Part shown: one piece after another, positions 13,633 to 47,928 of the stretch
Layout of the letters: each line of letters begins with the position of its first letter
How positions within the stretch are numbered: the stretch's first letter is position 1
Source: Desulfurellales bacterium
Lineage (GTDB): Bacteria; Campylobacterota_A; Desulfurellia; Desulfurellales; Hippeaceae
Reading direction: 5' to 3'
DNA: 48,610 nucleotides
Assembly (NCBI GenBank): GCA_027035575.1
Contig: JALVUQ010000045.1
Coordinates: 1-48,610 of the forward strand
Program-made: the position numbers and the translations under genes
Notes under the pieces: model-generated
Seen by the model: the letters and a program-made list of their open reading frames with translations, nothing else
Told to the model about the DNA's origin: nothing
Databases searched by the model: none

Positions 13633-13671
13633 CGCACACCTCCTTATCCTCGTAAGGTTAGTGTCTTTAGA

Positions 13672-13820
13672 CTTTTCGACTCAGGTCTCCTGGCTCGGCT
13701 TCATCCTACTCTCTTTGCCTTCCCACCTTAAAAAGGCAGTGGCTTGAAATAAAGATTTCGTCAGCCTTACAGTTGCGGGACAGCGCCGGAGTTTCACCGG
13801 ACTTCCCTTAAGTCGAAAAG
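13672..13820 (-). promoter_or_regulatory. Cobalamin riboswitch
   Basis: On the minus strand the sequence shows the conserved core GGGAA...GGTGAAACTCC...GCGC, then TGTCCCGCAACTGTAA, and further on AGCCAGGAGACCTG, the B12 box. A ten-base-pair P1 stem is formed by 13811-13820 and 13672-13681 (CTTTTCGACT with AGTCGAAAAG). The element begins eight bases after the btuD stop and precedes btuB. It would repress btuB-tonB when adenosylcobalamin is abundant. The likely expression platform is the hairpin at 13642-13657, which overlaps an AAGGAGG. Confidence 0.96.
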
Positions 13821-13827
13821 ATAGACA

Positions 13828-14583
13828 TCAAAAATAAACTACTCTGCCCAAACCGTGTTTAAACTCGTTAAGTTTGATTTTAAAGAGTTTTTCGAGCTTT
13901 TGCAAGTCAAAAACATCCTCTTTTGTCCAACTGCATTCAACTCTGCCTTCGTTTAAGCAGATGAGATTGTCGTATATTTTAATCGCTTCGTTAATATCGT
14001 GCAGTATAACTATTATTGTGGTTTTGCTTTTTATGCGGCTTAAAAGATTCAAAATCGACGCAATATGTGCTATATCAAGCGCAGAGGTCGGTTCATCCAA
14101 CACGGCGTATTTTGTTTGCTGACAAAGAATTTTTGCTATGATTGCTCTCTGCAGTTCCCCGTCTGAAAGTTGAGACAGCAATATATCCTTTTTCTGCCTT
14201 AAATCCACAACATCAAGCATCTCGTCTATTATCATCCTGTCCTGCTTATTCAGGTTTAAAAAAACGCTTTCTTTATGAACATACCGTCCTATTCGGACAA
14301 ATCGCTCCACAGATATATACAAATCTTTAACCATTCTTCTGTGAATGTAGGAAATAATCCTGCTTCTGTTTTTTATGTCGAGCTTTTTAATATCATAGGA
14401 ATCTATCTCAACACTGCCTTCGTAGTCGTCAATCAATCCCGAAATAATTTTTGCAAATGTCGTCTTACCGCTTCCGTTCGGACCTATTATTACGCTCAAA
14501 GAGCCGTCCGATATGTCAAGCCTCTCTATATTCAAAGAAAATGCTCGATTATATGTAAAATGCAGTTGTCTAACGCTCAGCAT
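13828..14583 (-). CDS. btuD: Cobalamin/iron-chelate ABC transporter ATP-binding protein (BtuD-like)
   Basis: The 251-residue ATPase shows Walker A IIGPNGSGKTTFAKI, the signature LSDGELQRAIIAKIL, Walker B YAVLDEPTSALD and the switch His in ILHDINEAIKIYDN. This is the FecE/BtuD pattern. The start overlaps the 3' end of the permease gene by 14 bases. It would power the permease upstream, with the binding protein also encoded in this operon. Vitamin B12 as substrate is inferred from the riboswitch and the receptor directly downstream; siderophore ATPases look similar. Confidence 0.9.
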   Translation of the reverse strand: MLSVRQLHFTYNRAFSLNIERLDISDGSLSVIIGPNGSGKTTFAKIISGLIDDYEGSVEIDSYDIKKLDIKNRSRIISYIHRRMVKDLYISVERFVRIGRYVHKESVFLNLNKQDRMIIDEMLDVVDLRQKKDILLSQLSDGELQRAIIAKILCQQTKYAVLDEPTSALDIAHIASILNLLSRIKSKTTIIVILHDINEAIKIYDNLICLNEGRVECSWTKEDVFDLQKLEKLFKIKLNEFKHGLGRVVYF

Positions 14584-44267: not shown

Positions 44268-45032
44268 TTACAGGTTCTTTGGTTTTTTAAAGAAAGATTT
44301 AATCGCGACAACGGCAATAAATGAGAACAGCACAACGAATACGGATGCCGCCAAGCCTTTATTAAAATTACCCTCAGTCATTTTAAGGTAGATGTTTATC
44401 GGTATGTTGGCGGTTTTATAAGATATTCCGCCGCCAACCATCAGTGTTGCTCCGAACTCTCCCAAACTTCTTAACCACGTAAGTACAAGACCGGACAAAA
44501 TACCGTTAAAAGCCAACTTGAACGTTGTATCGTAAAACGAGGAAAAGTTGGATGCACCAAGCGTCATAGCTATTCTTTCATATACGGGAGATATGAGCTC
44601 AAAAGCATTTTTTGAAGCTTTAACGCTGAACGGAAACGCAACAAAAAACTGTGCGATTATTGCGCCGGCGGTTGTAAATATAAAGGAATAAAAGGTTTTA
44701 ACAAACGGTGCATTAAAAAAGGTTAAAAGTAAAGCACCTACAACAAGTGGCGGTATGATTAAGGGTATGTCGAAAAAAGAATCAAGTCCTTTTGATATAA
44801 ATGTATCGCTCCTTGCCAAAAAAAATCCTGTTGGAATACCAAATACTGCAGAAAGTAGAGTTGCCGTTACGGATGTTTTTAGCCCGAATACCACAGACGA
44901 TAAAAACTCCTTATCGCTAAACAACTCAAGAACGTATCTCGGATTGACCTTAAAAAACCCGTATAAAATAACGCTCAATATAAAAGCGCATAAGAGCAGC
45001 GCAAAAACAAGAGAAATTTTTGTAAGTTTCAT
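44268..45032 (-). CDS. modB: Molybdate/tungstate ABC transporter permease
   Basis: The 254-residue permease has about six helices. It shows PLIIPPLVVGALLL, the EAA-type loop FELISPVYERIAMTLGAS that contacts the ATPase, and RSLGEFGATLMVGGG, which is diagnostic of ModB/WtpB/CysT permeases. The start overlaps the 3' end of the binding-protein gene by four bases. Whether molybdate or tungstate is preferred cannot be told from the permease. Confidence 0.9.
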   Translation of the reverse strand: MKLTKISLVFALLLCAFILSVILYGFFKVNPRYVLELFSDKEFLSSVVFGLKTSVTATLLSAVFGIPTGFFLARSDTFISKGLDSFFDIPLIIPPLVVGALLLTFFNAPFVKTFYSFIFTTAGAIIAQFFVAFPFSVKASKNAFELISPVYERIAMTLGASNFSSFYDTTFKLAFNGILSGLVLTWLRSLGEFGATLMVGGGISYKTANIPINIYLKMTEGNFNKGLAASVFVVLFSFIAVVAIKSFFKKPKNL

Positions 45033-45769
45033 TTTACCGGTATTTTATAGCCGTATTGTTTATACACGTTTAAATGTTTGAGTATGAAGTTAAGCAGCCT
45101 ATTTTTAGCTTTTTGATTTTTACCGAATTTCATTTCGGCAAGGTAACCCGTTTTAATTTTGTTGTACTGTTTCGGTATGGACACATATTGTATATTGTTA
45201 ATCTTTGCAACCGCAGCAAAAATCAATCCTGCATCCACACTGTTCATTTTTATGTAGTTTACTATTTGAGATATATTGATTGCTTCTATTGTTACGTTGT
45301 TTTTTAACTTTTGCCTCATATTTTCGGGGAGTTTATTCAAAATGTAAAGATATGTTTTCCCCAAAGCCATCGTTTTAGGGTTGCCTGCCGCAATTTTTAT
45401 GCCTTTTTTGAGAATATCGTTAAAAGAACGTATCCTTTTTTCTGCTTCCTTTGAGACACCGAATACGGGGATTAGCTTTATGAATTTTACATAACTTTCA
45501 ACAAGCCCCTTTTTTTGAGCCATCCTGAAAAACTTCGGGTCAAGGCAGCCGTATATATCCCCCTTCTTTGATAAAATCATCTGTTGTAAAATTTGTCCTG
45601 TTCCACCTGCAATTACAACTACCTTATCACTATGGGTTTTGTTAAACATCTCTGCTATTTTTTGGGACGGTTTTTTTACGGCGGCTCCTGTGAACCAAAA
45701 AAGCGTGTAGGCGTAAGAATTAAAGGAAAACACGAAAACAGACATCAATAACAACAACAAGTACCTCAT
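45029..45769 (-). CDS. modA: Molybdate/tungstate-type periplasmic binding protein
   Basis: The 246-residue protein has a signal peptide (MRYLLLLLMSVFVFSFNSYA). The ModA-like fold is seen in FWFTGAAVKKPSQKIAEMFNKT, AGGTGQILQQMILSKKGDIYGCLDP and VDAGLIFAAVAKIN. The GGTGQ stretch replaces the usual GSSG oxyanion loop. It binds an oxyanion for the permease encoded next. Molybdate versus tungstate is undecided. The gene overlaps modC upstream and modB downstream by four bases. Confidence 0.85.
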   Translation of the reverse strand: MRYLLLLLMSVFVFSFNSYAYTLFWFTGAAVKKPSQKIAEMFNKTHSDKVVVIAGGTGQILQQMILSKKGDIYGCLDPKFFRMAQKKGLVESYVKFIKLIPVFGVSKEAEKRIRSFNDILKKGIKIAAGNPKTMALGKTYLYILNKLPENMRQKLKNNVTIEAINISQIVNYIKMNSVDAGLIFAAVAKINNIQYVSIPKQYNKIKTGYLAEMKFGKNQKAKNRLLNFILKHLNVYKQYGYKIPVK

Positions 45770-46833
45770 ACTGCAAACTCCTTACAAAAAATAATAGATT
45801 CTTTTTTCAATGATACCGTTATGTATGAGCCCACGCTCAAAGACATCTTGGATAGTATATGCTCCGGTATGTTTATTGAAACAGCGGTGTTATTCTTGGT
45901 TGAGGTTACCAAATTCACATATCTCCCCCTGAAGTTAATTCTCTCTATTTTTACATCTATCTTGTTTTCTTTGTCAGATATATCTGTATCTTTTCTCAAA
46001 ATCATTATGTTTTCAGGTTTTATACAGCAAAACTTAGCTTCATCAGTTAATCCTTCAATATTAAGCTTTATTCCGTTTGCAAGCTCAACGAAGCCTCTTT
46101 TTGCTTTTTTTATTCTCCAGATATTAGCGAAATCCAGAAGTTTTGCCGTTTCAACAAAAGACGGAGTGTTAAATATTTTGCTTTTGTCGCCGAACTCCAT
46201 AACCAACCCGTCCTTAACTATGACGATTTCATCTCCGAATACGAAAGCCTCCTCCAAATCGTGCGTAACAAATAAAACAGGTATTGAAAATGAGGATGCA
46301 ACGTCTGCTACCAACTCTCTCAACTCTTCCCTTATGGGTCTGTCTAAGGCGCTGAAAGGCTCATCAAGGAGCATAATATCAGGTTTTACAACCAAAGCCC
46401 TTGCCAGAGCTGCTCTTTGTCTTTGCCCTCCCGATATTTCGCCCGGATATTTGTCAAGGCAGTGAAAAATACCGAATCTTTTTGCAATATCTTTAACGCC
46501 GAGTGTGTCTTTCAGCCCCTTTTTCTTTAAACCGTATCTTATATTTTCCTCCACGCTCATATTAGGAAAAAGCGTATATTCTTGAGGCAGATAGCCAACA
46601 TTTCTTGCCTGTATGGATAAAGCCGTTTTGTTGTTTGATGAGAAAAACTCTCTGCGGTTTATTTTTATAAAACCTCTATCGGGGTTGTAGAAACCAGCAA
46701 TCATCTTTAAAAGGGAAGATTTTCCGCTTCCAGATGCGCCGAAGATGACGCATTTAAGTGAGTGCAGTTTGAAAACCATTGATATGTCGAATGAACCGAG
46801 TTTCTTTTTTATGTTTATATCAATCATATTCAC
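45766..46833 (-). CDS. modC: Molybdate/tungstate ABC transporter ATP-binding protein with TOBE domain
   Basis: The 355-residue ATPase has Walker A VIFGASGSGKSSLLKMIAG, the signature EISGGQRQRAALARALVV, Walker B IMLLDEPFSALDRP and the switch His in VTHDLEEAFVFGDE. Residues about 275-355 form a TOBE oxyanion-binding domain (FCCIKPENIMI, then INFRGRYVNLV), typical of ModC/WtpC and used for trans-inhibition. A GTG start at 46833 overlaps the stop of a small upstream frame (GTGA) and lies eight bases after AAAAGGA; ATG 46827 is the alternative. It is the first classical gene of the riboswitch-controlled operon. Confidence 0.9.
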   Translation of the reverse strand: MNMIDINIKKKLGSFDISMVFKLHSLKCVIFGASGSGKSSLLKMIAGFYNPDRGFIKINRREFFSSNNKTALSIQARNVGYLPQEYTLFPNMSVEENIRYGLKKKGLKDTLGVKDIAKRFGIFHCLDKYPGEISGGQRQRAALARALVVKPDIMLLDEPFSALDRPIREELRELVADVASSFSIPVLFVTHDLEEAFVFGDEIVIVKDGLVMEFGDKSKIFNTPSFVETAKLLDFANIWRIKKAKRGFVELANGIKLNIEGLTDEAKFCCIKPENIMILRKDTDISDKENKIDVKIERINFRGRYVNLVTSTKNNTAVSINIPEHILSKMSLSVGSYITVSLKKESIIFCKEFAV

Positions 46834-47039
46834 AGCTTCATTCCTTTTCCTGTGTTTATTCTTGAATTTATGTCATATAAATATAGACTTTTCTTACACT
46901 TCTCACTGTTGTTATCCGGATATGTAGAGATAGTTTTATTGGAAGTTACAGTAGGACTTTGAAAGATGAACGCGGAGAACATAAGATATAATAAAGTGCT
47001 GTAAAGAGCACGCAAGAATTGAGGAATAAAAAAAGTCAC
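46830..47039 (-). CDS. Small membrane/exported peptide encoded between Moco riboswitch and modC
   Basis: A 69-codon frame starts with GTG at 47037-47039, seven bases after AAAGGAG (47047-47053), and ends in TGA overlapping the GTG start of modC. The peptide has a hydrophobic segment at about residues 7-26 (FLRALYSTLLYLMFSAFIF) followed by a polar Ser/Asn/Lys-rich tail ending KGMKL. It resembles a signal-anchored or secreted small protein; I recognise no family. Its Shine-Dalgarno sequence is part of the riboswitch 3' strand, so it would be the direct translational target, with modC coupled through GTGA. The ribosome site, position and overlap support it; without homologues it could still be a chance frame. 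Confidence 0.5.
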   Translation of the reverse strand: MTFFIPQFLRALYSTLLYLMFSAFIFQSPTVTSNKTISTYPDNNSEKCKKSLYLYDINSRINTGKGMKL

Positions 47040-47043
47040 AAAA

Positions 47044-47146
47044 CATCTCCTTTCCAAATACGGGAGGCGTAAGCGTTTCCCCTTACACCCTATCGGTCTA
47101 TAACCCGATAGCTTTTCAAGCCTTAGGTTTATAGACTCGGAGCTTT
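47044..47146 (-). promoter_or_regulatory. Moco/Tuco-family riboswitch
   Basis: On the minus strand the conserved pieces of the molybdenum/tungsten cofactor RNA motif appear in order: CTCCGAG, then ACCTAAGGC, an internal hairpin CTATCGG...CCGATAG, GGGGAAACGC, GCCTCCCG and GGAAAGGAG. The last piece closes P1 with the first CTCC and contains the AAAGGAG ribosome binding site. It precedes the Mo/W transporter operon. Cofactor binding would be expected to hide that site and stop import. The ligand form (Mo or W) depends on helix details that I cannot settle by eye. Confidence 0.88.
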
Positions 47147-47150
47147 ACAA

Positions 47151-47178
47151 ACTATATCAAAATAGATTAAAATTGCAA
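47151..47178 (-). promoter_or_regulatory. Promoter for the riboswitch-modCAB transcript
   Basis: On the minus strand TTGCAA (47173-47178), 16 bases, TATAGT (47151-47156). The predicted transcription start falls within a few bases of the riboswitch 5' end. Confidence 0.55.
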
Positions 47179-47211: not shown

Positions 47212-47928
47212 ATGAGGTCTGTAAAAATTTTATTTGTCGTTGTTTTTTCTTTTTTTATAGGTTTGGGCTATGCAAATGCACAAGGGGTTAAAAATCCCGT
47301 ATATTCTTCTGTTTCGACATCTTTTGTACTGACAAAAACCATAAAATGCGATGAGGTGAAAGCAAAATTTGAGGTTTATGCGGAAGGCGATACATATTCT
47401 ATGGCATTAAAAAGATTGGCTAAGATAAATAACGATTTCGTTAAGTTCTTAAGAAAGATTTTTAACCCCAAAGAGGTTCAAACAAGCAACGCATACGGAT
47501 ATTCAAAAACGGCTGTGCTCTATGTATCTGTTCAAAGTAAGAAAACAGATAAGATTTCTTATGTTTTGAGCTATATAGCAAATAAAACTTTTCAATATAA
47601 AACCGGTATAAAGCCTATGTATATCAGGTTTGTCGTATCGAATAAACTAAAAAGAGAGGTTAAAAATTCACTATTTCTTGAAGCTTTGAAGGTGTCCAAT
47701 GCCAAGTTAGCGGTAGTCAACAGTGTTTTGTCAAACGGCTATAAGATAGGCTCGCTCGATATAGGTGAAAATACGGAGTATCCTATATTGTATGAGAGAA
47801 ATACCTTTAGAACGTTGTATAAAAGCGCTTCGGTTTCACCGGGAGGAGAGGAGAAAATTCAAACATCACCGGGTAGTGTAACAATAAAAGTTAAAGTAAG
47901 ATTAAAATTGATTAAAAAAATCGATTAA
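47212..47928 (+). CDS. Secreted SIMPL-domain (DUF541)-like protein
   Basis: The 238-residue protein has a signal peptide (residues about 1-23, ending YANA). The mature part has a SIMPL-like pattern: KCDEVKAKFEVYAEGDTYSMALKRLAKINNDFVKFLRKI, then a second half with SLFLEALKVSNAKLAVVNSVLSNGYKIGSLDIGE and a closing beta strand VTIKVKVRLKLIKKI. SIMPL proteins are periplasmic or outer-membrane associated and poorly understood. It is divergently transcribed from the Mo/W transporter with less than 70 bases between the riboswitch and its start. RBS GGGAGG precedes the ATG. Family assignment is moderate. Confidence 0.65.
   Translation: MRSVKILFVVVFSFFIGLGYANAQGVKNPVYSSVSTSFVLTKTIKCDEVKAKFEVYAEGDTYSMALKRLAKINNDFVKFLRKIFNPKEVQTSNAYGYSKTAVLYVSVQSKKTDKISYVLSYIANKTFQYKTGIKPMYIRFVVSNKLKREVKNSLFLEALKVSNAKLAVVNSVLSNGYKIGSLDIGENTEYPILYERNTFRTLYKSASVSPGGEEKIQTSPGSVTIKVKVRLKLIKKID

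Follow-up and report, generated by a model that had tools for sequence, protein, structure and literature searches.

A Moco-family riboswitch precedes a short open frame and modCAB-like genes

The DNA analyzed here (the window) is a 48,610-nucleotide (nt) stretch of contig JALVUQ010000045.1 from a Desulfurellales bacterium. Along its minus strand, a Moco-family riboswitch aptamer is followed by an open frame of 69 codons and then by modC-like, modA-like, and modB-like genes. These three encode a modC/wtpC-like ABC ATPase (45766..46827; PF00005), a substrate-binding protein (SBP_bac_11; 45029..45769), and a permease (44268..45032). All coordinates below are on this strand unless otherwise stated. 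On the plus strand, divergent from the aptamer, lies a SIMPL-domain (DUF541) gene (47212-47928), whose position is kept in two related genomes (G002 and G007). The minus strand also carries a cobalamin riboswitch (13663-13852; 98.9 bits).

The aptamer (47031..47154) matches the complete Moco/Tuco riboswitch model RF01055 (positions 1-135) with a cmscan score of 80.2 bits, against a gathering score of 36. Its sequence is 100% identical in the nearest relative having the locus, a Desulfurellaceae MAG (G002, contig WGCD01000056.1; here, the congener). The P3 stem is absent, its positions being deleted in the Rfam alignment, and the genome contains an AOR-family (AFOR_N) gene, of the tungsten aldehyde oxidoreductase family. 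The P3-lacking form was linked to the tungsten cofactor by Regulski et al. 2008, a correlative link (PMC2408646). Based on the missing stem and the tungsten-related gene, the window aptamer is predicted to be of the tungsten-cofactor subtype.

The ribosome binding site that follows is part of the aptamer itself. The sequence AAAGGAG (47047..47053) is at once the 3' strand of helix P1 and the Shine-Dalgarno (SD) sequence of the small frame: its GGAG (47050-47047) pairs with CTCC of the P1 5' strand (47142-47139) and lies 7 nt upstream of GTG 47039. The SD is therefore located within an aptamer helix and could be occluded by it. An initial annotation had assigned this aptamer-embedded SD to a small GTG-started frame and not to modC, and the anatomy confirms that assignment.

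The frame (46830..47039) is open for 69 codons, from GTG 47039 to TGA 46832-46830; in the list of open reading frames, it reaches further upstream to TTG 47057, which lies within the aptamer. Its TGA overlaps GTG 46833 and adjoins ATG 46827. GTG 46833 (46825-46833) is a start that a gene caller might choose, and the initial annotation had the TGA overlapping it. This overlap exists, but comparison with relatives places the modC start probably at ATG 46827, with GTG 46833 possible: the congener has GGAAAATATG and no GTG at the 46833 position, and close orthologs begin M/L-I-D/E at the ATG position. With this start, the small frame would end 2 nt before modC. An SD-like AAAGGA (46847-46842) precedes modC.

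Within the frame, GTGCTCTTTACAGCAC and TTTATTATAT can form a weak terminator-like hairpin (46996..47011). We considered and rejected an intrinsic terminator as the switch: the window offers this one weak 5-pair hairpin, its stem is lost in the congener, and in the clear family loci the aptamer-to-gene interval holds no strong intrinsic terminator.

The small frame contains a relic of a porin gene

The locus in the congener is orthologous to that of the window, as the SIMPL-domain neighbor (217/238 residues; 91%), a peroxiredoxin (194/200; 97%), and modC (93%) are all highly similar. There, 1.3 kb separates the aptamer from modC, and the interval contains an intact gene of 410 codons. The encoded protein begins like a signal peptide and ends in phenylalanine; a profile of six sequences (the porin and its relatives) places it in the DcaP-like porin family (PDB 6eus, E 7.6e-12).

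A search of 17 genomes with the 69-residue product identified no homolog; besides the query itself it returned, among weak matches, this porin gene, read in the frame of the query (G002:C56:7370-7519, E 0.097). When the search was confined to the syntenic gene, 46945-46846 aligned with porin nucleotides 716-815 ungapped and in frame, with 66/100 nt identical. The matched segment corresponds to about codons 239-272 of the congener's 410, and the conserved core of the alignment is NNSEKCKKSLYLYDINSRIN in the window versus NSAEYRENAYLYSIASRLN in the congener. Its score of 32 was reached by none of 1,000 dinucleotide shuffles and by none of 243 same-sized control chunks of these genomes (best score, 18). 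The tail of the frame thus matches the porin gene above chance, in frame, and at the same place in an orthologous locus.

The head of the frame has a different source. Positions 46985..47039 are homologous to the congener's leader (45/55 columns; 82% identical), and two single-base indels shift the frame between them. Downstream of the porin match, homology with the congener resumes at 46841, just upstream of modC (46820..46841). A search of the window's whole genome found no further match to the congener's porin. As judged from these alignments, the frame is most likely a leader joined to a fragment of the porin gene, most of which was lost. About 34 of 410 porin codons are still recognizable in the window, and no barrel-forming protein is possible from them. 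For a third genome of the same genus (G001), the assembly is 76% complete and contains neither the aptamer nor modC.

The length of the frame is unremarkable given this origin. An open frame of 69 codons occurs in 0.6% of plain dinucleotide shuffles, but the first 31 codons would be open with a probability of 0.31, and a tail that was once coding would stay free of stops under neutral drift with one of 0.24-0.40. Similarly, the hydrophobic N terminus follows from a T-rich linker, T making up 45% of aptamer-to-gene linkers across the family. With the porin match, a false small-protein gene can be struck from a transporter operon, and its origin becomes clear: once a gene is deleted, an open frame remains downstream of a ribosome binding site, and that site is protected from erosion as part of the aptamer.

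In two genera, a P3-lacking Moco aptamer is also followed directly by a DcaP-like porin gene (L031:3571-4983 and L145, G003:C136). The DcaP-like porin is a candidate tungstate/molybdate outer-membrane channel under cofactor control, one that would have been lost in the window's genome.

No amino acid constraint is detected in the encoded peptide

The initial annotation had proposed that a small membrane or exported peptide is the direct target of cofactor control, and had taken as its refutation related genomes in which riboswitch and modC persist but the frame shows stops, frameshifts, or neutral substitution. Such genomes exist, and the peptide is missing from relatives that keep the riboswitch and modC. 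In four of these (G003, G004, G005, and G007) the aptamer SD serves modC directly, a fifth (G008) has a 7-codon frame, MYISPSS, before modC, and the congener has the frameshifted leader and the porin gene. The 69-residue product has no family match in Pfam, NCBIfam, or PHROGs.

Codon substitutions likewise fail to bear out a conserved peptide. Across the 32 alignable codons of the tail, dN is 0.48 and dS is 0.46, so amino acids change as fast as silent sites; for modC in the same genome pair, the values are 0.035 and 0.44. The equal dS fits divergence over the same time, and the difference lies at amino acid sites. Of the 32 tail residues, 22 differ, compared to a maximum of 5 in any 32-codon window of modC. 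The bootstrap interval of the tail omega is wide (0.26-5.2, from only 32 codons), so that the ratio by itself is compatible with weak constraint, and the sequence compared is an outer-membrane porin that may itself evolve fast. For this reason, the argument combines the ratio with the frameshifts in the head, the loss of most of the porin gene, and the absence of the peptide elsewhere. Together these give good support for rejecting a conserved membrane-peptide gene. The peptide sequence is probably dispensable, and initiation at the aptamer SD is probably the element that matters.

Start codons recur at the aptamer SD across the family

To place the frame in context, we surveyed all Moco aptamers found in the class. 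Four serve modC directly, probably the older arrangement of the modC locus, and 21 do not serve a gene directly. In 18 of these 21, a start codon lies 5-11 nt past the SD core GGAAAGGA, versus a background of 0.196 in an equal window of the same linkers; the remaining three have no suitably placed start. For ATG alone, the count is 10/21 against a background of 0.018. Binomial probabilities are 1e-10 for any start and 1e-12 for ATG, values that overstate independence, as the species are related.

Most of these starts open frames of 6-38 codons with products unrelated to each other. The genes behind them are of at least five types (modA, modC, DUF364, TonB-dependent receptor [PF07715], and porins). 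Two of the 18 frames (G011 and G019) continue in frame into the downstream gene, and stop/start overlaps occur at the gene start in G006 (TAATG) and G008 (ATGA). The modA loci illustrate what is kept. Their mini-ORFs encode MRKTRFYS, MHNHSLF, MFAFVLI, MTALIF, and MVLSVLLSKGIAL, and all five leaders have an ATG 7-8 nt after the core in a linker that is otherwise largely unalignable. Orthologous modA leaders share a conserved aptamer core but not the codons past the start. The peptides thus differ both across loci and across orthologs, and the survey indicates that a start codon on the aptamer SD is kept, while peptide and length are not.

Most genes that follow mini-ORFs in the family carry their own strong SD, from which it follows that coupling is not obligatory. 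The C/G ratio of the linkers is 1.58, versus 0.62 in genes and 1.14 upstream of aptamers; such C-rich linkers are compatible with Rho loading, which is suggestive only.

The frame as a probable translation-gated leader

We consider it likely that the 69-codon frame is a leader (uORF) gated at translation by a tungsten-cofactor-type Moco riboswitch and lengthened by the porin relic. Without cofactor, the SD would be open, and ribosomes would start at GTG 47039, cross the leader, and stop 2 nt before modC. A stop beside modC would favor its expression through termination-reinitiation, and RNA covered by ribosomes would be shielded from Rho. When tungsten (or molybdenum) cofactor is bound, P1 would lock the SD, the leader would go untranslated, and modCAB expression would fall. 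That the frame is translated, and that modC needs this, we infer from the start codon enrichment across loci. Of the two roles first suggested for the small frame, the one as a leader whose translation opens modC survives and is strengthened, with the coupling being the presumptive part. Our best reading broadens that role to a recurrent mini-ORF in the family, presumably riboswitch gated, of which the window copy is stretched by a porin relic.

Each part of this arrangement has a counterpart in characterized systems. The Escherichia coli moaA riboswitch belongs to the same RNA family and has its SD within P1, where occlusion is the established model and ligand is expected to repress (PMC2408646); the moaA leader is also Rho sensitive (PMC7815308). 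In moaA, however, the SD serves the regulated gene directly and P3 is present, whereas the window SD serves the leader frame and P3 is absent. Mycobacterium tuberculosis has riboswitch-gated uORFs coupled to downstream genes, both B12 and Mbox, with or without Rho (PMC11260477, PMC12810186). The ppe2 B12 riboswitch resembles the window in having an aptamer-controlled uORF with a stop/start overlap with the next gene (PMC11260477). It differs in aptamer class and in that uORF translation was shown to be required there, whereas coupling in the window is presumed and modC may have its own SD. At pe20, the Mbox riboswitch has direct control of a small upstream frame that precedes an operon of several genes, with Rho-dependent termination. 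The pe20 uORF peptide is conserved and has a homolog elsewhere, unlike that of the window (PMC12810186). We found no report of a uORF with a Moco riboswitch in the literature searched, coverage of which was incomplete.

One alternative is that the frame is purely accidental. The SD core would belong to the aptamer, the start codon after it would be there by chance, and modC would use its own AAAGGA, with any control acting through the transcript. TTG and GTG starts are common in T-rich DNA, mini-ORF lengths of 6-38 codons resemble those of random frames, and modC has an SD of its own, as do most mini-ORF genes. Chance does not account for starts at SD spacing so far above the linker background, nor for the ATG in all five modA leaders where the linker around it has largely diverged, and we regard an accident as unlikely.

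A second possibility is that the aptamer SD is a standby or loading site for ribosomes that start at a distant gene, with the frame untranslated. The precedent is the SAM-II switch of Sinorhizobium meliloti metA, where an SD embedded in the riboswitch acts at a distance of 74 nt on a start codon far downstream (PMC9373788). In that system, no separate mini-ORF is invoked, and initiation occurs at AUG2 in frame. Gene starts in most non-direct family loci lie 52-77 nt past the aptamer core, but the distance in the window is about 210 nt. A standby site also does not predict an enriched start codon at SD spacing. We find this explanation quite improbable.

Coupling might instead be mediated by structure, if translation of the frame opened a helix that its early part forms with the start of modC. 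In the predicted fold, TTATATCTTATGTTC from the frame does base-pair with the region where modC starts, and this duplex beats 96% of shuffles. The signal is marginal (p 0.042), consists mostly of A-U pairs, and sits in an overall fold with a z of -1.12; a comparable signal was absent in 12/13 other family loci tested. In addition, the TTATTATATC stretch is common to the congener, where modC is 1.3 kb away. We therefore set aside helix-mediated opening of the gene start, which likewise seems to us quite improbable. Finally, it is highly improbable that porin debris was recruited as a young membrane or exported peptide modulating the Mod transporter: an open frame with a suitably spaced SD, a hydrophobic N-terminal region, and a stop where modC begins would suit such a peptide, orphan small proteins can be lineage specific, and the omega interval includes values below 1, but the product lacks homologs in relatives and any family match, is frameshifted against the congener leader, changes amino acids at the silent rate where alignable, and owes its openness to its origin.

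Mini-ORFs behind Moco aptamers in other lineages

Mini-ORFs on aptamer SDs also occur outside the class, in the phylum of G054 (L018 and L151-L154) and in genus g63 (L156, L157, L189, and L190). The pattern is not universal, as the phylum of G037 has mostly direct genes or genes with their own SD. A broader claim, on which we are evenly divided, covers Desulfurellaceae and two or more lineages beyond it, among them the phylum of G054 and genus g63: there, the common target of Moco/Tuco riboswitches would be a short leader frame that acts independently of its peptide, in place of the regulated gene. The SD built into the aptamer and the start codon would together make up a translation gate, passed on to the gene by reinitiation, by exclusion of Rho, or, at mini-ORFs that cross a terminator-like hairpin, by ribosome-mediated antitermination. 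Should this pattern be confirmed across the family, the Moco/Tuco class would be added to the small set of riboswitches for which uORF gating has been shown by experiment. The loci before modA, modC, DUF364, porin, and TonB-receptor genes would also be natural replicates for asking whether uORF translation, rather than the peptide, carries the signal.

Several Moco aptamer loci have features of their own. In the phylum of G054, modB-like genes at L018, L151, and L152 are preceded by mini-ORFs on the aptamer SD that run across terminator-like hairpins, where a translating ribosome could serve as an antiterminator. The L018 mini-ORF stop overlaps the gene start (TGATG). At another locus (L003:719-2338; G012:C154), a Moco aptamer is followed by a 16-codon mini-ORF and then by a TonB-dependent receptor gene (Plug domain, E 8.9e-17) that is cut by the contig end, pointing to possible TonB-dependent Mo/W uptake under riboswitch control. 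Lastly, Moco aptamers in genus g5 are most often followed by a gene for a DUF364 protein (putative heavy-metal chelation), found at L144:1201-1956 and at seven further family loci, and this protein is a candidate for a role in Mo/W handling.
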